A stretch of 64,000 nt of DNA. Source: a bacterium. GTDB lineage: Bacteria > Zhuqueibacterota > Zhuqueibacteria > Residuimicrobiales > Oceaniaggregativiventaceae. The position numbers and the translations under genes are program-made. The stretch lies in the NCBI GenBank assembly GCA_029565675.1, contig JAKQNP010000021.1, positions 1 to 64,000 of the forward strand, given 5' to 3'. Shown here in pieces: positions 2,575 through 21,925 of the stretch. The notes below the pieces were generated by a model. It did no database searches. It saw nothing but the letters and a program-made list of their open reading frames with translations, and was not told the origin of the DNA. The first letter of the stretch is position 1; each line of letters opens with the position of its first letter.

Positions 2575-3357
2575 CTAGATACTGAACATAAAGTCTTCAA
2601 CCGTATTTTTTAACTGCAAAAACTGAGCGGTCCTTCTGGTTTCGCGGTTGCGCGGAAAGGGCAGATCGACGTCATACTCTTTGACGACGCTGGCCGGTTT
2701 GCCGCCCATGATGTAGATCTTGGTCCCCAAAAATACCGCTTGCTCGATGTTGTGGGTGACCAGGATCACCGTCGACTGCAGCTGCTGCCACAGGTTGGCA
2801 ACCAGCAAATCAATTTGCAGCGCGGTATCGTTGTCCAGCCCGCGGTTCGGTTCATCCATCAGGATGATGCCGGGATTGGCGATCAGGCTGCGGGCGATCA
2901 CCACCCGCTGCAATTGCCCGCCTGAGAGTTTGCCGAATTTGGCGTATTTGTGCTCGTGGCCCTCCAGGCCAACGGCTTTGATCATGTTCATCGCCCGTTC
3001 TGCTGCTTCCCGTTCCGGCACATGGCGGTACAGCATCGGCAGCATGATATTCTTCAGCACCGTATAGTGCTCCAGGGCAGAGGGCTCCTGAAACACCATG
3101 GAGATGGGCACCGAATTCGAGCGATCCCTGCCGTGGATCAAAACTCGGCCGGAATAGGGGTTCATCAGTCCGGCGATGTATTTCAGCACAGTGGTCTTGC
3201 CGCAGCCCGATTTGCCCAGCACGACCACAAATTCGCCTTTATCCGGGATATCCTCGATCAACAGGTTCATGTTCCTGATGATGAAAGTCTTGCCTCCATC
3301 ATAGCTGGTGCAGATGTCCTGCAGTTCGATGATATCCGGCAGATTGGTATTTTGCAT
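2575..3357 (-). CDS. ABC transporter ATP-binding protein (nitrate/sulfonate/taurine type)
   Basis: A 260-residue ATPase that would energise import through the permease encoded just upstream. Walker A is GKSGCGKTT (48-56), the Q-loop FQEP (89-92), the signature LSGGQ (144-148) and Walker B IILMDEP (164-170), followed by the D-loop and the H-loop histidine (VTHN). It resembles the SsuB/TauB/NrtD group. The frame stays open far upstream of 3357, but there it runs out of phase through the permease gene and looks unlike any protein, so the ATG at 3357 (MQNTNLPDIIELQDI) is the start. It is the last gene of a five-gene operon, 23 bp after the permease. Confidence 0.92.
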   Translation of the reverse strand: MQNTNLPDIIELQDICTSYDGGKTFIIRNMNLLIEDIPDKGEFVVVLGKSGCGKTTVLKYIAGLMNPYSGRVLIHGRDRSNSVPISMVFQEPSALEHYTVLKNIMLPMLYRHVPEREAAERAMNMIKAVGLEGHEHKYAKFGKLSGGQLQRVVIARSLIANPGIILMDEPNRGLDNDTALQIDLLVANLWQQLQSTVILVTHNIEQAVFLGTKIYIMGGKPASVVKEYDVDLPFPRNRETRRTAQFLQLKNTVEDFMFSI

Positions 3358-3380
3358 CGTCTCACCCAGATGGTTGTCGG

Positions 3381-4172
3381 TCAACTGTATTTGAAGCGAA
3401 AGATCACTCGGTCGAGCAGGCGCAACAGCTGGTCGAACAAAAAGCCCACCGCAACCATAATCAGGATCAGCGCATAGAGTTTTTCGGTTTCGTTCATGCG
3501 AAAGTAAAGATTGTAGATCAATGCGCCGATGCCGCCTTCCTGTTTGTTGATCAGCTCTACATAGATGGCATAGGTCCAGCTGATGGCGACGATGTTGATA
3601 AAATCGGTCGATACCCGCGAAAGAACCTGTGGGATAAATACGGTTTTGATGATCTGCCATTTGCTGGCGCCCAGTGTTTTGGTGGCGTCGACATAGATTT
3701 GCGGTATTTCCTGAACCCGAAAGACCACCGCGGTGATCAAATAGACCAGAATCGCAAACGTCAGGAACTGTACCTTCATAAACATATAGATGCCGAACGC
3801 TGCCATGAACAGGACGATCGTCGCGGTCAGTGGAATGTAGCGGGTGGCTTGAATGTAACCGCCGAACAGAGCGCCGAACAACGGGTAGAGTCCGATCAAA
3901 AAGCCGATCGGCAGGGCGATCGCCACGCCTTCGATCCAGCTCACCATGTTCATAAAAATAGTCAGCGACAAATGGCGAAACAACTGATCGCGCTGCACCA
4001 GTTCCGGCAAAGAGCCGAGAATGGCAAAAGGTGACGGTATGATTTTGGGATTGACGATTTTCAGAGCAACCACCAGCCACCACACCAGGATGATCGCCAC
4101 CAGACCGATCAAACCGATCTTGATGCGGGTGGATTTTGGCAGGCTCCCGCGCAACTCGAATAAAGACGACAC
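3381..4172 (-). CDS. ABC transporter permease (SsuC/TauC-like)
   Basis: A 263-residue inner-membrane permease with about six hydrophobic segments. The cytoplasmic EAA-type loop (TKTLGASKWQIIKTVFIPQ) couples to the ATPase. The GTG at 4172 is preferred because an AGGAG lies 6-7 nt upstream and this choice removes an overlap with the preceding gene; an ATG-initiated reading from 4211 would run into the binding-protein gene, which ends at 4196. The neighbours (binding protein and ATPase) make a complete importer of the nitrate/sulfonate/taurine class. The substrate cannot be deduced. Confidence 0.9.
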   Translation of the reverse strand: MSSLFELRGSLPKSTRIKIGLIGLVAIILVWWLVVALKIVNPKIIPSPFAILGSLPELVQRDQLFRHLSLTIFMNMVSWIEGVAIALPIGFLIGLYPLFGALFGGYIQATRYIPLTATIVLFMAAFGIYMFMKVQFLTFAILVYLITAVVFRVQEIPQIYVDATKTLGASKWQIIKTVFIPQVLSRVSTDFINIVAISWTYAIYVELINKQEGGIGALIYNLYFRMNETEKLYALILIMVAVGFLFDQLLRLLDRVIFRFKYS

Positions 4173-4195
4173 GGTTTTCTCCTGGTCAATGATAT

Positions 4196-5695
4196 CTAGA
4201 GCAACGAGCACTCGGCCCGGCGGTTAAGCGCGCGATTCTCCTCGCTGTCGTTCGGAGCGATCGGCTCATCCGGCCCTTTGCCGTCATAGACGAATTGGTT
4301 GCGGCTCAAGCCATAGGTTTCGACGAAGAAATCGACGATGGCGCGCGCTCTTGACCGCGAAAGGCGGATGTTGTAATCGCGGTCACCGATGTTGTCGGTG
4401 TGGCCAACGATGCGAAAACGCGAATTGGCGTTCATCGCCACGATCTGGCCGTATTCATTTTTCAGTTTCAGCTTTTCTGCAGGTCTTAACTGTGCCGAAT
4501 CGAAATCATAGTTGATGTGCACGAGTTTGGTCGCCACCGCCGGTTGATTCAACATGCTGCTCGTCGGCGGGGTAAAGGTCGCCGGTGCCTGGGCCAGATG
4601 CTCCGGGCCGGTCAACGAGATCGAGTTGATCGTGGCAACGCTCGAAACCATGCGCCAGCGCGGCAGATTCGGTGAAGCAAAACCGAGCTCCTGATAGGCT
4701 TTGCACGCTTCATCATAGACCATTTCCGCGGTCACACCTTTATAATTGGGATTGAGGCCAAAAAAAGCCAGGTTGTCGCCGTGGGTGGCAAAGCGGACCT
4801 TGTCAAAGGTTTCCAGCCAATACTCCTCGGTCGTGCCGCTGTAAGCCGCGGTCATTGTTTTTGCCGCCTCGGCCTTGGCCGCGGGGCTGGCATTCAGCTC
4901 GGCCGCGCCTTTCATCCACCCTTCGAGAAAGGCCTTGAGGTCATCAGGGCGCTTGTCGATGAGATCCTGGCTGGTGAACATGATGCCGAACAGCATTTCA
5001 GATGCCTCTTGGGTGCTTTTCAGGATATAAGAGCCGGGAACGTTTTTGCGCACCGAGATGTCATCCGGTGACCAGCCAACCACGGCATCCAGTTGTCCGG
5101 TTTCAAACGCTTTGAACCCCTGCGGCACTTCCTGGAACTCGATTCCCTGGACATCGCGCATGGTCATGCCGGCAGCCTTGAGGATGTTCAACAACAACCA
5201 CTGCGAAGGCGATCCGGGCACATAGCCGATCTTTCTGCCTCTGAGGTCGCCGACCGATTTGACATCCGCCGAGGCGAGAATGACGTCTGCACCCTGGGAT
5301 TTGTCGGTCAAGTAAAAAATACGCGGATTGAAGGACAACAGCTCCTGCAGCCCGATCGGATAAGAATCGACGGTCAGGACGATAACATCCAACTTGCCGG
5401 CTTTCCAAGCTTGAATGGCGTCCGGAATGACATCCATAACCGTAAATTTGACCTTTAAATCGTAATCTTGCAGATAGCGCGACTCGGGATTGGGAGACAA
5501 TCCCTTGTTAAAGTAGGGTCCGGGGGCCATGCCGGAATAGGTCACCAGATGGACGCGCAGCTCATCGCCGACTCCGCCGACGGGAAGGTATTTCCAGCCG
5601 AAAAATCCCACCAGCGCGATGATGATGAGGCCGATCAGGATCTTTGCAAAGGGAGTCAAGCCCCCTTTTGATTTGCCTTCGTATGGATCTGCCAT
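4196..5695 (-). CDS. Membrane-anchored substrate-binding protein fused to OmpA peptidoglycan-binding domain
   Basis: This 499-residue protein fuses two domains. An uncleaved N-terminal anchor (about 17-36) is followed by a SsuA/TauA-like type II periplasmic binding domain (about 45-335, with WKAGKLDVIVLTVDSYP, DLRGRKIGYVPGSP and FETGQLDAVVGWSPDD). A linker (about 340-385) leads to a C-terminal OmpA-like domain (about 390-499) with the peptidoglycan-contacting pattern GHTDNIGDRDYN and a closing NRALNRRAE. The product should be tied to the inner membrane at one end and the cell wall at the other, presenting ligand to the adjacent permease. Normal ABC binding proteins of this class are free or lipid-anchored, so the fusion is unusual. 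It lies between the coiled-coil genes and the permease in one operon. Confidence 0.9.
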   Translation of the reverse strand: MADPYEGKSKGGLTPFAKILIGLIIIALVGFFGWKYLPVGGVGDELRVHLVTYSGMAPGPYFNKGLSPNPESRYLQDYDLKVKFTVMDVIPDAIQAWKAGKLDVIVLTVDSYPIGLQELLSFNPRIFYLTDKSQGADVILASADVKSVGDLRGRKIGYVPGSPSQWLLLNILKAAGMTMRDVQGIEFQEVPQGFKAFETGQLDAVVGWSPDDISVRKNVPGSYILKSTQEASEMLFGIMFTSQDLIDKRPDDLKAFLEGWMKGAAELNASPAAKAEAAKTMTAAYSGTTEEYWLETFDKVRFATHGDNLAFFGLNPNYKGVTAEMVYDEACKAYQELGFASPNLPRWRMVSSVATINSISLTGPEHLAQAPATFTPPTSSMLNQPAVATKLVHINYDFDSAQLRPAEKLKLKNEYGQIVAMNANSRFRIVGHTDNIGDRDYNIRLSRSRARAIVDFFVETYGLSRNQFVYDGKGPDEPIAPNDSEENRALNRRAECSLL

Positions 5696-5715
5696 TGTTC
5701 TCTCCTAGTATAAAA

Positions 5716-6828
5716 TCACCAGCCGTATTTTTTCTTTTGCTCCGCGCTGCTTCCAACCTGCACCGGCACGAGTTGCTTCTGTTCACCGCTGATTACGATG
5801 GCAACGGCTTGATTGGTATCTCCGCTCGACAAGGCCTGCCCGGCTTTGCCGATGTTTTCCGCCTGTTCCATCAACTGCTGAGTCGCCTCATCCCATTGAT
5901 CCAGCGTTTTCATCATCGCATCTTCACTGACCATGTCGTGGATCTCTGATTCAGCCATGAACTGCGGGGCGACTTCCATAAACCGATCCACCTGGCCGGT
6001 GAACAGCGCGATTTGATTCTGCACATATTTGACCGACTGTTCGTAAATATCGACACGGGCGTCGCCGCCGAGGGCGCTGGATGTGGCCTGGGTCGCCTTG
6101 GCCATGGCCTGCGCTTCGCGATAATCGGCTGACAGGGTGTCGGCGAAAAATTTGGTTTTGTCGCGATAAAACTCAAAGGCCTGCTGCATCTTTTTCATGA
6201 TGTCACAATATTTCTCGGCCCGCTCAAACCGTTTTTCGGATTTGTTCAGATTGCTCTGCAGCATGCCGGCTTCGCTGCTGATCTTTTGAAATTGAAACCG
6301 TTTGTCTTCATCTATCCATTTGTCACTCTTGTAAAACCGATCTTTCAACGCATCGGCTTGTTTGATCCGCTCCTTGATCTGGGATTGGTAGTTTTCGATA
6401 TTGTTTTTGATCTCGTTGCGAATGCCGAAAACATTGTCAGCTGCACCGCTGATCGTATTGAGTTTTTCGCTCAGATATTCGTCCACATAGGCATAGATGA
6501 TGTCGAGCGGATTCGATTTGATCATCAGCGAAGTGAACCAGCGATAGAATTTCGCCCGCAAATACCAAAGGATGGCGCGGAACTTTTTGCTCGTAAAGAC
6601 AAACCAGAGGATCGCCGCCAGGCCGACCAGAATACCCAGGACGATCATCTTGCTCGTGGCGGTGATGGCCAGGTTTAACAGGGCGATCAAATGGGGAAGC
6701 GCGAAATATGCGGCTGCCGCCAGCAATCCGAGAACGATCAACGCACCAAAATTCCCCCAGTGCTTTTGTTGCTTTGAAATAAATGTGCTCACTTTATCGG
6801 CACCTGGCAGGGTTGGCAGTTCAGTCAT
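5716..6828 (-). CDS. Membrane protein with long coiled-coil domain, function unknown
   Basis: A 370-residue protein I cannot assign to a named family. Two hydrophobic helices lie at about 27-52 and 58-78, followed by a basic, aromatic, probably amphipathic stretch (80-105). A long charged alpha-helical region (about 125-330), rich in K, E and Q with heptad-like spacing, suggests a cytoplasmic coiled coil; the tail is short and polar. The arrangement recalls membrane-stress scaffolds of the PspA type, but I see no sequence signature to claim homology. It is encoded 20 bp before the OmpA-fused binding protein and 51 bp after a second coiled-coil gene, so the two probably act with the ABC transporter. 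Confidence 0.75.
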   Translation of the reverse strand: MTELPTLPGADKVSTFISKQQKHWGNFGALIVLGLLAAAAYFALPHLIALLNLAITATSKMIVLGILVGLAAILWFVFTSKKFRAILWYLRAKFYRWFTSLMIKSNPLDIIYAYVDEYLSEKLNTISGAADNVFGIRNEIKNNIENYQSQIKERIKQADALKDRFYKSDKWIDEDKRFQFQKISSEAGMLQSNLNKSEKRFERAEKYCDIMKKMQQAFEFYRDKTKFFADTLSADYREAQAMAKATQATSSALGGDARVDIYEQSVKYVQNQIALFTGQVDRFMEVAPQFMAESEIHDMVSEDAMMKTLDQWDEATQQLMEQAENIGKAGQALSSGDTNQAVAIVISGEQKQLVPVQVGSSAEQKKKYGW

Positions 6829-6879
6829 TTTTTATCCTCCAAATAATTCGTGCTGGTGTCCGCTGACCGGGCTCCAGGG

Positions 6880-7620
6880 TTACTTGATATTTGCCAAATG
6901 TTCTGATAGTTTGGCTTTCAGCTCGACAAGCCTGCGGCGATGCGCTTCCAGAGCAGCATGGAATTGGGTTTCGCGCTCGTTTTTTTTCTGCTGCAACTGA
7001 TTGATCTCGCCCTCAGCAACCACTCTCTGCGAGATCAGCTGGGCGCGCTCGTCTTCGAGTTTTTTCTTTTCTGCACTTTTCGCCGACAGAAATGAATCGA
7101 TTTCCTTTTGCAGCGTTTGCAGGCGGGCTTCACGATCTTTGATTCCCTGGCTCATCTGCTGAACTTTTTGTTGCACCGCCGCCTGGTTTGCCTGGTAGCC
7201 ATGATCGTTTTGGGCGTTGAATTCACGTTTCTCGCTTTCCAGCGTCTTCTCGATCTCGGTAATCGATTTTACCAAGGCCGCAGGAGTCAGGCTGTGACTG
7301 CGCGCCTTGAGTGCCGTCTGGGCAGCATGAAAAGCCAACTGGAAGCGGGTCGTTTCATCCAGATTGGTGAACTTTTCATTGATCACCGACATCTGGTTGT
7401 GGAATTCGGCAAATTCCGCCGGCGTCGTCTTGGCCAACTCTTTTTCGATGGCGCGATAGAATTCCGAATCGACATCGGCTGGTGTCGGCAAGGGCGGCGT
7501 CACAGGAAAGGTCAGCGGATCGAGATCGCCGACAGATGCAGGGGCAAGATCCTCAGGCCGAGTTTCTTCATGACGCCAAAATAGGTCTTTGATCTTTTTA
7601 ATCTTTGCCATAGAGGTCAT
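6880..7620 (-). CDS. Soluble coiled-coil protein, function unknown
   Basis: A 246-residue hydrophilic protein without signal peptide or membrane segment. The first 60 residues are proline-rich (PVTPPLPTPADVD), a helical domain covers about 60-125, and an uninterrupted coiled coil (about 130-240; KEIDSFLSAKSAEKKKLEDE and similar) fills the rest. No family is recognised. It is the first gene of the ABC/OmpA operon, suggesting a cytoplasmic partner for the membrane coiled-coil protein downstream. The start could be the ATG at 7620 or the one at 7611 (MAKIKK); neither has a clear ribosome site. Confidence 0.7.
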   Translation of the reverse strand: MTSMAKIKKIKDLFWRHEETRPEDLAPASVGDLDPLTFPVTPPLPTPADVDSEFYRAIEKELAKTTPAEFAEFHNQMSVINEKFTNLDETTRFQLAFHAAQTALKARSHSLTPAALVKSITEIEKTLESEKREFNAQNDHGYQANQAAVQQKVQQMSQGIKDREARLQTLQKEIDSFLSAKSAEKKKLEDERAQLISQRVVAEGEINQLQQKKNERETQFHAALEAHRRRLVELKAKLSEHLANIK

Positions 7621-7901: not shown

Positions 7902-8187
7902 ACCCAGATTCAGTGTTAACCGATTCAAAAAGCATCCGGCGCGTATTCTTTATCCGGTTATGAAAAGAGCATTTCTAACACCCGGATTCTGTGTCAACAG
8001 AATCCACCAAAATCTATTATATTTTTTTTATTACATTTGCAGCAAGAACCATTTCCACTCGCTTGGTGCAAATACCTTACTGTGTTTATTGGGGATTCGG
8101 TGCTTCGCACCGAATCCAGGTAACGCTTGGTATATTGCTATCCGATTGATTTTCTGAGAGATCCGGTCCTGCGTTCCGAATCCGGGT
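7902..8187 (+). mobile_element. MITE-like element, copy B (outer, interrupted)
   Basis: An outer 142-bp-class element interrupted by a second copy. Its halves are 7902-7979 and 8125-8187, together 141 bp once the insertion and one target copy are removed. It keeps the terminal motifs ACCCAGATTC and GAATCCGGGT and is flanked by the 3-bp direct repeat GAT (7899-7901 and 8188-8190). Confidence 0.8.
7980..8121 (+). mobile_element. MITE-like element, copy B (inner, nested)
   Basis: A 142-bp element inserted into copy B. Ends are ACCCGGATTC and CACCGAATCCAGGT, and the 3-bp direct repeat AAC flanks it (7977-7979 and 8122-8124). Its middle is AT-rich and more divergent than that of the other copies, but the length and both hairpin termini are conserved. 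Confidence 0.8.
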
Positions 8188-8560: not shown

Positions 8561-9943
8561 CTACCTATTCGATGAAGCGATTGGATCTCTCTGGCTATTG
8601 AATTTATCCAGCTTGCTCTTCAGGGTGGTGCGCGGCAGTTTTAAGAGTCTGGCGGCGGCGCTGATGTTGTTGCCGGTTTTCGCCATAGCCCGCTGAATGA
8701 TTTCGCGCTCGTGTGCGTTCATGTACTCATCGAACGGCGGGATCGATGCGGTCATTTTGTCCGCCGATGATTCGAACGGTTTTTTTTGTGCTGCGCCGGG
8801 CTGTTCAGACGGAAATTGCAGCAAATCGACATTTTGCGGCAATGCCAGCATCCGCTGAACCGAATTCTCCAATTCACGCACATTGCCTGGCCAATGATAG
8901 CCCATCATCTTTTGCATCTGCTCACGGTTGATCTGCAAATCCTTTTCGCTGTGTTGGTATTTTTTGATGAAATGGTCGATCAGCAATGGCAGGTCTTCGA
9001 TATGCTCGCGCAACGGCGGCAGGTCGATCGTGAGGATATTCAAACGGTAATAGAGGTCTTCGCGAAACTGTCCTTGATTCACCATTTTGCCCAGGTCGAT
9101 TTTGGTCGCGCAAACCACGCGAAAATCCACCGGAATGGTCTGCTGGCCGCCGATCGGTTGAATCTCCCGTTCCTGCAAGACGCGCAGCAATTTGACCTGC
9201 AAATGGACAGGCAAATCGTCGATGTCGTCGATGAACAGCGTCCCCCCGTGCGCCCGTTCGATGTAACCTTGATGACGCCTGAAAGCGCCGGTGAAGGCGC
9301 CTTTTTCATGACCAAAGAGCTCGCTCTCGAGCAGGCTCTCCGGCAAAACCGCGCAGTTGATGGCGATGAAGGGTCCCTTGTGGCGTTCGCTGAATTGGTG
9401 CAGAAATCTCGCCACCAGCTCTTTGCCGGTTCCGCTTTCGCCCTTGATCATGACGGTGTGGTCGGTGATCGCAACTGAGCGCAGGGTTGCGACCAATTTT
9501 TGCATGACGGTTGAATTGCCGATGATTTCCCGATCTTCATAACGGGTAATGCGTTTTTTTAATTGCTTGTTTTCATGCAGGATTTCATGCAATTGCCTGA
9601 TGTTTTTCAACATGCTCAGCAGTTTATCCGGCGCAAACGGCTTGGTCAAATAGTCGTAGGCGCCGAGTTTCAGCGCTGTTACCGCTGTTTCGACTGTCCC
9701 GTAGCCGGTGATGACGATGACCGTGCTTTCTTTGTTCTTCTCCCTGGCGGTCTTGACGATTTCCAGTCCGTTTATATCGGGCAGCCGCAAATCGGTGATC
9801 ACCACTTCGAAATGATCCTCTTCGAGCCATTCGAGCCCCTCGTTGCCATTTTCGCATGCAATCGCATTGTACCCCTCTTTTTTCAGGGTGTCGCTCAAGG
9901 CAATGCGGGACATCTTGTCGTCTTCAACCAACAGTATCTTCAT
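8561..9943 (-). CDS. Sigma-54-dependent response regulator (NtrC family)
   Basis: A 460-residue enhancer-binding activator. The receiver domain (1-120) has the acidic pair E7/D8/D9, phospho-acceptor D51 (VITDLRLPD), T79 and K101. The AAA+ domain (about 138-370) has Walker A GESGTGKE (168-175), the sigma-54 contact loop GAFTGA (215-220) and Walker B LFIDDID. A Fis-type HTH (about 424-446, ISAAARLLKLPRTTLKSKL) binds DNA. The ATG overlaps the kinase stop by 4 bp, so the pair is translationally coupled. The likely target is the sigma-54-type promoter at 12470, which has palindromes upstream and lies just beyond the other end of this operon. Its input is the membrane kinase next door. Confidence 0.95.
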   Translation of the reverse strand: MKILLVEDDKMSRIALSDTLKKEGYNAIACENGNEGLEWLEEDHFEVVITDLRLPDINGLEIVKTAREKNKESTVIVITGYGTVETAVTALKLGAYDYLTKPFAPDKLLSMLKNIRQLHEILHENKQLKKRITRYEDREIIGNSTVMQKLVATLRSVAITDHTVMIKGESGTGKELVARFLHQFSERHKGPFIAINCAVLPESLLESELFGHEKGAFTGAFRRHQGYIERAHGGTLFIDDIDDLPVHLQVKLLRVLQEREIQPIGGQQTIPVDFRVVCATKIDLGKMVNQGQFREDLYYRLNILTIDLPPLREHIEDLPLLIDHFIKKYQHSEKDLQINREQMQKMMGYHWPGNVRELENSVQRMLALPQNVDLLQFPSEQPGAAQKKPFESSADKMTASIPPFDEYMNAHEREIIQRAMAKTGNNISAAARLLKLPRTTLKSKLDKFNSQRDPIASSNR

Positions 9944-11397
9944 CGGTTTTCCTCGATCGGTAGTGTGACCTGGAAGGAGGTGCCGATCCCGACGGTGCTC
10001 TGTACCTGAATCGCACCGCCATGCATCTCGACGATGCCGAGAGTGACGGATAAACCGAGACCGGTCCCACGGCCCTCCTCCTTGGTGGTAAAAAACGGGT
10101 CGAATATCTTGTCGAGATTTTTATCTGCAATTCCGCAGCCGGTATCGGCGATTGTAAAACCAATGGTATGGTCGTTTTCAGTTGCGGTGGTGATGGTGAT
10201 CTTGCCATCCGCCTCAAAACTGTCCAACGCGTTGAGAAGCAGATTCATCAGCACTTCCTGGATGAGATGCGGATCGGCTTCGATAAGGGGCAACTGGCTC
10301 TCCAGGTGCATTTCGAGCAGGATCCGGCTTTGCTCGATCCGGAATTGCAGCAGCGACAGCACCATGTTGATCTGTTCATTCAAATTGATTTTGGTGACTT
10401 GTTTGGCTTGCTGGTGGGAAAATCCCAGGAGCTTTTGCACGATGAGGGCGATGTGGTCGATCCCCTCATTGGCAAGCGCCAAGTAGCGCACCATTTGCGG
10501 CAGGTTGTGCGGTTCTTTTTCGATGGCATAGAGGCAGCTTTTCAGGCCGTGCAGCGGGTTGTTGATTTCGTGCGCAACGCCGGAAGCCAATCTGCCGATG
10601 GACGCCAATTTTTCGGCCTGGTGCATCTGTTTCTGCGCTTGCAACAGCTGTTTCCTGGATTGGCGGAGACGGTTGGTCATTTTTTCGAAATTGGTCACGA
10701 GAAAACCGATTTCGTCGTCACTGGCCGGCATCTGCATGGGGGCCATGTTGTTCAGATCAAAGTCGTTCATTTCAGCGACAAGCTGGCTCAACGATCGGGT
10801 CAAACGGTCGATGCGAAAATAGATCGCCGTCATCACAATCGCAATAAAGAGGATGGTGAATGAAAAGAGGGTAAAGAAGAGCTGGTTGAGTTTATGGCGC
10901 ATCGTATCGGCATCGAACCCCATCCTGAGCAGTCCCCACGACTTGCTGTGGATCTGCAAAGGCAGTTTGACCTCCAGGATCCAGCCGTAAATTTCAGATT
11001 GATAAATAGTCAAAGCCGATTCCGCCGGATCGACAAGAAGTTTTCCGGTCTTTTCGTTTTCCAGATCGATATTGCTGTAATCGCTGCGAACAACGGCATG
11101 ACCGTTTTGATCATAAAGCTCGATGAATTTAACCTGGTCGTTTTTTGCCATAAAATTGTGAATATGGTTTTCGATAAGACCCTCGGCTTGCAGCAGACCG
11201 CTCTCCTGGTAAATCAACGCATCGAGAATGTAGAGGGAAAAGGTTTGTGCAATCGATAGAGCGTTCCGCCGCTGGTTCTCCACAATCAATGATCGCCATT
11301 GATACAGCACGCTGATCGAAATCAATATCAGCAGGATGATGATCAACAAACCGAGAAAAATCAGGATGCGTGTCTTCAGGCTCTTCATCTGTATCAC
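9940..11397 (-). CDS. Membrane sensor histidine kinase
   Basis: A 485-residue kinase. Transmembrane helices at about 12-32 and 173-193 bracket a periplasmic sensor of about 140 residues (dCache/PAS-like size). Then come a HAMP linker (about 194-250), HisKA with H276 (GVAHEINNPLHG), and HATPase_c with N389, DTGCGI (418-423) and GRGTGLGLS (442-450). The GTG start at 11397 has GAGGAG 5 nt upstream and overlaps the stop of the PhnD-like gene. The order binding protein, kinase, regulator implies that a periplasmic ligand complex is presented to this kinase, which then phosphorylates D51 of the NtrC-type partner. The ligand is not known. Confidence 0.94.
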   Translation of the reverse strand: MIQMKSLKTRILIFLGLLIIILLILISISVLYQWRSLIVENQRRNALSIAQTFSLYILDALIYQESGLLQAEGLIENHIHNFMAKNDQVKFIELYDQNGHAVVRSDYSNIDLENEKTGKLLVDPAESALTIYQSEIYGWILEVKLPLQIHSKSWGLLRMGFDADTMRHKLNQLFFTLFSFTILFIAIVMTAIYFRIDRLTRSLSQLVAEMNDFDLNNMAPMQMPASDDEIGFLVTNFEKMTNRLRQSRKQLLQAQKQMHQAEKLASIGRLASGVAHEINNPLHGLKSCLYAIEKEPHNLPQMVRYLALANEGIDHIALIVQKLLGFSHQQAKQVTKINLNEQINMVLSLLQFRIEQSRILLEMHLESQLPLIEADPHLIQEVLMNLLLNALDSFEADGKITITTATENDHTIGFTIADTGCGIADKNLDKIFDPFFTTKEEGRGTGLGLSVTLGIVEMHGGAIQVQSTVGIGTSFQVTLPIEENR

Positions 11398-12326
11398 GGC
11401 AGCTCCTCGGAAGCAGTCAAAATGGATTCCATCTGGTCATAATCGGTGTCCTGCGCGATGGTAAATCCAAAGAAAAATTCCGGATCCCAATTTTTGACTA
11501 TTTTTTTATCCTCCGGATTGCGAATGTCGATTTTGAGCAGCGCTGTTTTCATCGCGTTGCTGATGGTGGAATCCAGATCGCTTTTGACGATTATCGGAGA
11601 ACCGGGGATTGGATCTGAGACTGCGAGAATGCGGATGCCTTTGTTGGTGAACTCCTCGGCGACCCGGTCTTTGACTGCCCCTGCATCGAAATTGCCGCGC
11701 AACACCTCATAGATGACGGTGTGGTGAAATCCAAAATAGTGCACCGAGTCCAGGTCGCTTGCCCTGAGTCCATGTTCCTGCAGAGCCACTTTCAGCACCC
11801 AATTGCCGGAAAACGAGAGCGGTGAGGGCAGCGCCAGCCGTTTGCCGGCCAGATCGGCGATCGACTGGATCGGGCTGTCGGCGCGGGTAACCAGCACCGA
11901 ATGGAAATAGGGCTGGAATTGACTGTTGAGAGGCTTGAGAAGGCATTTGATGGGATGGCTTTGGCGCGCTTGCAGGTAGAGAAAAGTCCCCAGAAATGCT
12001 GCCTGAATGTCGCCGCGATCGAGTTGCGAAATGGTTTCTTCATACGAGCTGCTCAAGCGCAAGGCAAATTGATAGGGCGTGGCGTCGCTGAGATAGTCCA
12101 TGATCGGCTGATAGCCTTCATAGATCAGGTTGGGAGAAAAACGGGAGATCACGCCGACATAGACTGTGTCTTTTACCGCTCTATCGCCGTTGCTTTCAGC
12201 CAAGGATGGTACGGCGGTGTCGACTGAACTGATGTCCATGATCGAGCGATAGATCAGCGCGCTGAGAGCGATGAAGAGCAGCGAGAGGCCTGAGATAAGA
12301 ATGGCGAAAGGAGATTTCATCTGCAT
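11394..12326 (-). CDS. PhnD-like periplasmic binding protein, probable sensor component
   Basis: A 310-residue protein of the phosphonate/phosphite-binding (PhnD) superfamily. A hydrophobic N-terminal segment (about 8-28) has no clear cleavage site and may act as an anchor. The binding fold follows, with YVGVISRFSPNLIYEGYQPIMDYL, LDRGDIQAAFLGTFLYL, DLAGKRLALPSPLSFSGNW, VLRGNFDAGAVKD and a late SDPIPGSPIIVKSDL. No permease or ATPase adjoins it in this operon; it is fused by a 4-bp overlap to the kinase gene, so a sensory rather than transport role is likely. Known PhnD-type proteins bind oxyanions such as phosphonate, phosphite or phosphate; the specificity here is inferred only from the phosphate genes across the divergent promoter. 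Confidence 0.86.
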   Translation of the reverse strand: MQMKSPFAILISGLSLLFIALSALIYRSIMDISSVDTAVPSLAESNGDRAVKDTVYVGVISRFSPNLIYEGYQPIMDYLSDATPYQFALRLSSSYEETISQLDRGDIQAAFLGTFLYLQARQSHPIKCLLKPLNSQFQPYFHSVLVTRADSPIQSIADLAGKRLALPSPLSFSGNWVLKVALQEHGLRASDLDSVHYFGFHHTVIYEVLRGNFDAGAVKDRVAEEFTNKGIRILAVSDPIPGSPIIVKSDLDSTISNAMKTALLKIDIRNPEDKKIVKNWDPEFFFGFTIAQDTDYDQMESILTASEELP

Positions 12327-21783: not shown

Positions 21784-21925
21784 ACCCAGATTCGGTGTTA
21801 ACCGAATCAATAATCATTCAATCACTTGTTTCTTATGCGGTTGCACAAATGGCAGTTTTCATCCCCTGTGTATTGCTATCAAATTGATATTATGTGAGAT
21901 ACGGTGCTTCGCACCGAATCCGGGT
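21784..21925 (+). mobile_element. MITE-like element, copy C (142 bp)
   Basis: Full 142-bp element with ends ACCCAGATTCGGTG and CACCGAATCCGGGT, the left end folding as GATTCGGT-GTTA-ACCGAATC. The 3-bp direct repeat TGT flanks it (21781-21783 and 21926-21928). It is clearly alignable over its length to the reverse complement of copy A. It sits between two convergent genes. Confidence 0.83.

Follow-up and report, generated by a model that had tools for sequence, protein, structure and literature searches.

A strongly conserved five-gene envelope cassette of KSB1-group bacteria, very probably a variant of the operons that join PspA or transmembrane coiled-coil proteins to an OmpA-fused binding protein and an ABC transporter

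The signals that tell bacterial PspA/ESCRT-III proteins where and when to assemble, and the control of those forms that work without an AAA+ ATPase, are an open question. It is raised again by a stretch of 64,000 nucleotides (the window; positions 1 to 64,000 of contig JAKQNP010000021.1, assembly GCA_029565675.1, a bacterium of the phylum Zhuqueibacterota), where five open reading frames (ORFs) lie head to tail on the minus strand from 7620 to 2575. They encode a peripheral coiled-coil protein (CC), a transmembrane (TM) coiled-coil protein (CCTM), a solute-binding protein fused to an OmpA domain (SBP-OmpA), a permease and an ATPase. The cassette is strongly conserved, and very probably it is a new, KSB1-group form of a widespread kind of envelope operon in which PspA or TM coiled-coil proteins accompany a PBPB-OmpA fusion and an ABC transporter. 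The first-pass annotation of the window, made from the sequence alone, knew no named system with this set; the wider PspA, PBPB-OmpA and ABC association had, however, already been noted in one sentence by Ravi et al. (2024; PMC11237479; example OGG56892.1), who interpret the wider operons as connecting membrane remodelling with solute transport and call the regulation of PspA without AAA ATPase unknown. No functional or experimental study of SBP-OmpA operons was found in the literature searched, most subscription papers being outside its scope.

The five collinear genes with gaps of 20–51 bp described by the first-pass annotation are borne out, the intergenic gaps along the cassette being 51, 20, 23, and 23 nt. 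The ratio of nonsynonymous to synonymous differences (pN/pS) is about 0.11–0.13 for four of the genes and about 0.3 for CC, which indicates that the ORFs are selected genes. The host falls within the KSB1/Calditrichota group, the nearest named records being metagenome-assembled genomes of candidate division KSB1 and Calditrichaeota. CCTM is present in 11 of 99 genomes, window genome counted, and a profile search of 388 genomes, about 300 of which lie outside the phylum (the phylum itself makes up 82 of the available genomes), revealed no further CCTM and none outside the phylum. Six other genomes show the order CC, CCTM, SBP-OmpA, permease, ATPase in full, or in full as far as a contig end; the four remaining CCTM genomes are broken by contig ends, and none contradicts the five-gene order. 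The gene set is not peculiar to this bacterium; had it been, the first-pass annotation would have counted its reading as refuted. Genes flanking the cassette differ between carriers, and its recurrence as a unit in other genomes far exceeds chance. Chance co-location of five unrelated genes was rejected, because no carrier in which the order can be read departs from it.

The third gene combines within one ORF the Pfam families NMT1 (3.7e-14) and OmpA (2.8e-15), and this pairing is invariant in the relatives, where the protein is 71–83% identical; loss of the OmpA domain in relatives, the other outcome that would have spoken against the earlier reading, was not seen. Hydropathy indicates a single TM helix at residues 13–31, and the candidate binding residues of the OmpA domain, D434 and R449, are likewise invariant. 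Judged from these features, SBP-OmpA is a protein that spans the inner membrane to peptidoglycan, as had been proposed. It shares with MotB/Pal/ZorB-type proteins a TM or lipid anchor and a peptidoglycan-binding OmpA domain, and differs from them in the SBP standing between anchor and OmpA and in having no MotA/TolQ/ZorA-type partner. The AlphaFold model (mean predicted local distance difference test score, pLDDT, of 59) was kept out of the fold search; in it the linker near residues 364–397 is of low confidence and probably flexible. TM anchor and OmpA domain in one polypeptide, joined by such a linker, could belong to a mechanosensor, in which SBP-OmpA would read membrane-wall distance or tension and relay it via the transporter to the coiled coils, as the first-pass annotation suggested. 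But a flexible linker is a poor transmitter of tension, the conserved SBP pocket and ABC motifs would be needless for a pure distance sensor, and nothing was found in specific support of this idea; it is considered quite improbable, and CCTM is better read as a PspA/ESCRT-III-like coat protein.

Unlike CCTM, the SBP-OmpA fusion is found in many phyla. One genome of the window's order holds a divergent, full-length copy, and the alignment obtained with it detected SBP-OmpA fusions in other phyla and on Vibrio plasmids; the wider family is common, 54 of 326 genomes in one sample containing a match to the fusion with E no higher than 1e-45, full-length in nearly every case. Local hidden Markov models (HMMs) served to read the gene order at 45 loci, among them those of the window group; since part of the HMMs had been trained on some of the same loci, it is the gene orders and not the scores that count as evidence. 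Across phyla, PspA, TM coiled coil, and AAA+ recur beside SBP-OmpA, permease, and ATPase. In its fullest form the order runs CC-like, PspA, SBP-OmpA, permease, ATPase, TM coiled coil, AAA+ (loci L150, L151, L162, L163, and L165). Pfam PF04012 identifies PspA in L100, L103, and L163 (E 3e-17, 1e-11, and 3e-19, respectively), and PF00004 identifies AAA+ in L103 and L163. Among the shorter forms are further five-gene versions: L100 reads CC-like, PspA, SBP-OmpA, permease, ATPase; L101, L102, L146, and L148 read CC-like, SBP-OmpA, permease, ATPase, TM coiled coil. Slot by slot the window cassette equals L100, with CCTM occupying the PspA slot. The first-pass annotation had proposed to check whether the five-gene order is conserved in other phyla; the wider SBP-OmpA operons are found there, and the CCTM form was not found outside its own phylum in the 388 genomes.

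Compared with the operons of Ravi et al., in which PspA, TM-Snf7, and AAA+ proteins stand with an ABC ATPase, a permease, and a PBPB-OmpA protein, the cassette is alike in its SBP-OmpA fusion, NitT-type permease, ATPase, and helical membrane-associated proteins, and its order matches L100 and the front part of L163 and L165. It differs in lacking a recognisable PF04012 PspA, a separate TM coiled-coil gene, and AAA+ (the last said of some operons); CCTM seems to merge a TM hairpin with a PspA-like region, and among the genomes searched no carrier lies outside the KSB1-group phylum. The one candidate in the cassette for a PspA or TM-Snf7 homolog is CCTM, which holds the PspA slot and aligns with PspA in register, though below threshold. 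Gene set, domains, topology signals, conserved order, and matching slots can be read directly from the sequence, and a variant of this operon kind is very probable.

SBP-OmpA fusions also occur on Vibrio plasmids. The TelA cluster of plasmids pSEA2 and pIFO15640, like the cassette, brings SBP-OmpA together with an ATPase, a permease, and a TM coiled-coil protein; it differs in its order and in holding a second SBP-OmpA fusion as well as a free SBP, a vWA protein, and TelA. The Vibrio plasmid clusters read here (L098, 13372–24257; L099, 13374–24936) comprise permease, ATPase, TM coiled coil, TelA, vWA, and three SBPs, one of them free and two fused to OmpA, and their SBPs carry the RefSeq names of nitrate, phosphate, and urea binding proteins. 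Another arrangement was seen in a genome of the same order (G007; L077, 9390–18000), where divergent SBP-OmpA, permease, and ATPase genes stand without PspA amid Ser/Thr-kinase-like genes and a kinase that, judged by eye, combines a formylglycine-type domain with a DnaK-like C-terminus. An anti-phage defence system acting in the manner of Zorya, in which ZorB likewise bears an OmpA domain, may be considered: copies lie on Vibrio plasmids, the distribution is patchy, the OmpA part is hit by the ZorB models of PADLOC (2e-7), and the AAA+ of the fuller versions weakly matches IetA. Yet the ZorB match is confined to the OmpA domain, there is no ZorA-like protein, nuclease, or helicase, and CC, CCTM, and permease match no PADLOC defence model, which makes a defence role very improbable.

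CC has no TM segment and begins with a short basic amphipathic N-terminus (hydrophobic moment about 1.05); it is 47–69% identical across 10 aligned sequences. CCTM, 72–85% identical among relatives, has by hydropathy two TM segments, at residues 30–48 and 61–79, followed by five basic residues, so that its helical part is probably cytoplasmic; the cytoplasmic side proposed earlier for both coiled coils agrees with these signals. The AlphaFold model of CCTM shows helices at 107–165 and 174–246, with pLDDT above 90 over about 140–190 and an overall mean of 65. Neither CC nor CCTM has a significant family in Pfam, NCBIfam, or PDB sequence searches, and a DUF5063 match to CCTM falls below cut-off.

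In hhalign comparison with cassette plus canonical PspA sequences, CCTM 83–280 pairs in register with almost the entire PspA domain over 182 columns, a match that is weak (P 6.3e-4, probability 28%) but stable. The register is identical in six random PspA subsets (P 4e-4 to 0.03), while reversed PspA profiles give 16–36 columns (P 0.02–0.11) and other coiled-coil families, forward or reversed, 13–69 columns. Circular permutation of the PspA profiles leaves piecewise matches (P 7e-4 to 0.01), which is expected because the pieces keep their order. With PspA/IM30/Vipp1 (PF04012, ESCRT-III superfamily) CCTM shares a predicted long helical hairpin in addition to the alignment, and differs by its two preceding TM segments. 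In IM30 the hairpin of helices 1–3 suffices for membrane binding (PMC12636044), and it is this part that CCTM appears, from its sequence, to retain.

Several observations weigh against this kinship and against the assignment built on it. The likeness, with its 28% probability, stays below family thresholds, canonical PspA alone gives P 0.07, PF04012 is found in no CCTM, and Foldseek with the CCTM model gave nothing beyond generic long-helix hits (none with E below 0.019) and no PspA-like best match. CC and CC-like proteins align at P 0.001–0.01, suggestive at most, and AAA+ is absent beside all KSB1-group cassettes, as far as cassette neighbourhoods go; it is also absent from L100–L102. The CCTM profile is shallow (effective number of sequences, Neff, 1.4), which limits sensitivity. 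Comparison of CCTM or CC with the TM coiled-coil proteins by hhalign gave no stable alignment. PF04012 has no match anywhere in the window genome, and within the phylum CCTM carriers and PspA carriers share no genome; this was not used as evidence, since zero overlap arises by chance in about 1/7 of cases (hand estimate). Residues 83–280 of CCTM are taken as a probable relative of PspA/ESCRT-III.

The main rival explanation concerns the transporter genes. The cassette permease, ATPase, and SBP belong to the same fold families as the SsuABC/TauABC/NrtABC importers, the permease carries the ATPase-coupling motif DATKTLGAS, Walker A, LSGG, and Walker B of the ATPase are all intact, and in NCBIfam the SBP comes closest to SsuA-family and putative urea SBPs. 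An ordinary NitT/TauT-type importer of a nutrient (sulfonate, taurine, urea, or similar) might thus be present, its SBP held near the permease by TM anchor and OmpA tether and its coiled coils serving to scaffold or place it. However, those SBP matches lie below the cut-offs, and no cassette permease, ATPase, or SBP reaches the NCBIfam equivalog cut-off of any named importer; the SBP is TM-anchored and OmpA-fused, two coiled-coil genes are added, no enzyme or catabolic gene accompanies the cassette across carriers, and the homologous operons hold PspA, AAA+, vWA, or TelA instead. Conservation at or above that of RpoB is also unusual for an accessory importer. A tethered importer is therefore judged rather unlikely.

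This conservation is seen against two genomes of other families in the class, to which the window proteins are 82–86% identical (CC 62–64%), RpoB being about 72%. The same-genus genome and both same-family genomes are without CCTM, and in the SBP-OmpA tree the window protein joins the other families (97/93), apart from its own order. Synonymous sites are saturated (pS about 0.8), which means that exchange of the cassette was not recent. Together, these sequence comparisons suggest an old horizontal exchange plus strong constraint on the cassette.

For the envelope operon variant the following mechanism can be proposed. SBP-OmpA would sit in the inner membrane and hold peptidoglycan by its OmpA domain; anchored in both membrane and wall, it would fix permease and ATPase under one wall patch. 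Beneath that patch, on the side facing the cytoplasm, CCTM as a TM-anchored PspA/ESCRT-III-like protein and CC as a peripheral coiled coil would form or recruit a coat, whose assembly would be controlled by ligand binding or loss at the SBP, read via the ATPase cycle, and which would stabilise or remodel the inner membrane at stressed sites. Here we infer a physical complex, a PspA-like activity of CCTM, the direction of signalling, and a ligand. Such control of a CCTM/CC coat by a wall-tethered, ligand-gated ABC module is the likeliest of the readings considered, yet it is offered tentatively, with clearly worse than even chances as stated, and the whole statement, variant of the operon kind plus mechanism, comes somewhat nearer to an even chance and still falls short of it. 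A further-reaching version is distinctly unlikely: in it the TM hairpin would keep CCTM, as an ESCRT-III-like protein, in the membrane at all times, and under a wall-tethered patch the ABC ATPase would, with no AAA+ in the cassette, power or switch both the building and the dissolution of the coat in answer to a periplasmic ligand. If CCTM is PspA-like, a compact five-gene module with a wall-bound, ligand-binding ABC system would make PspA/ESCRT-III control directly testable.

Table 1. Features of the cassette, in positions of the window.
Feature	Position	Strand	Basis
CC, 246 aa peripheral coiled-coil protein	6880..7620	-	ORF; conserved across 10 aligned sequences
CCTM, 370 aa, with a TM hairpin at the N-terminus and a helical, probably cytoplasmic region behind it	5716..6828	-	ORF, hydropathy, model
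CCTM TM hairpin, residues 30-79	6592..6741	-	hydropathy
CCTM PspA/ESCRT-III-like region (probable), residues 83-280	5989..6582	-	hhalign to PspA
SBP-OmpA fusion, 499 aa	4196..5695	-	Pfam NMT1 + OmpA
SBP-OmpA N-terminal TM anchor, residues 13-31	5603..5659	-	hydropathy; model helix 15-36
SsuA/NMT1-type periplasmic binding domain, about residues 45-350	4646..5563	-	Pfam, NCBIfam
OmpA C-terminal peptidoglycan-binding domain (by family), about residues 394-499	4199..4516	-	Pfam; aligned relatives
NitT/TauT-type permease, 263 aa	3381..4172	-	Pfam BPD_transp_1; motif
ABC ATPase, 260 aa	2575..3357	-	Pfam ABC_tran; motifs

The start of CC is probably the second Met (7611), where its homologs begin. 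For the permease a GTG with a good ribosome site before it was taken as the start, the mechanical ORF start being 4211.

A PhnD-like binding protein, a sensor kinase, and a sigma-54 response regulator form one overlapping operon at 8561–12326. The first-pass annotation had this sensor operon following the cassette immediately, but with respect to transcription it stands upstream, at a distance of 940 nt, and its genes were not found beside the cassette in other carriers. No conserved promoter was recognised upstream of CC, where the upstream regions fail to align, and promoter and terminator scans stayed at chance level.

The palindrome GGATTCGGTG-N5-CACCGAATCC occurs at 2147–2171 and 8093–8117, with an imperfect copy at 21897–21921. 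The first two copies bracket the cassette within longer imperfect inverted arms (2144–2207/8123–8186 and 2255–2296/7890–7931). The palindrome is a genus-specific dispersed repeat, with 25 copies in the window genome, 37 in the same-genus genome, and 0 in six others; the inverted repeats are thereby ruled out as cassette-specific transposon ends, since they contain this genus-wide repeat. Two copies so near the cassette may nevertheless mark its insertion. No repeat of the end of tRNA-Arg(tct) (1050–1124) is reported within the first 16 kb; a tyrosine-recombinase-like gene (22–1038) adjoins this tRNA gene, the usual site of integrative elements.

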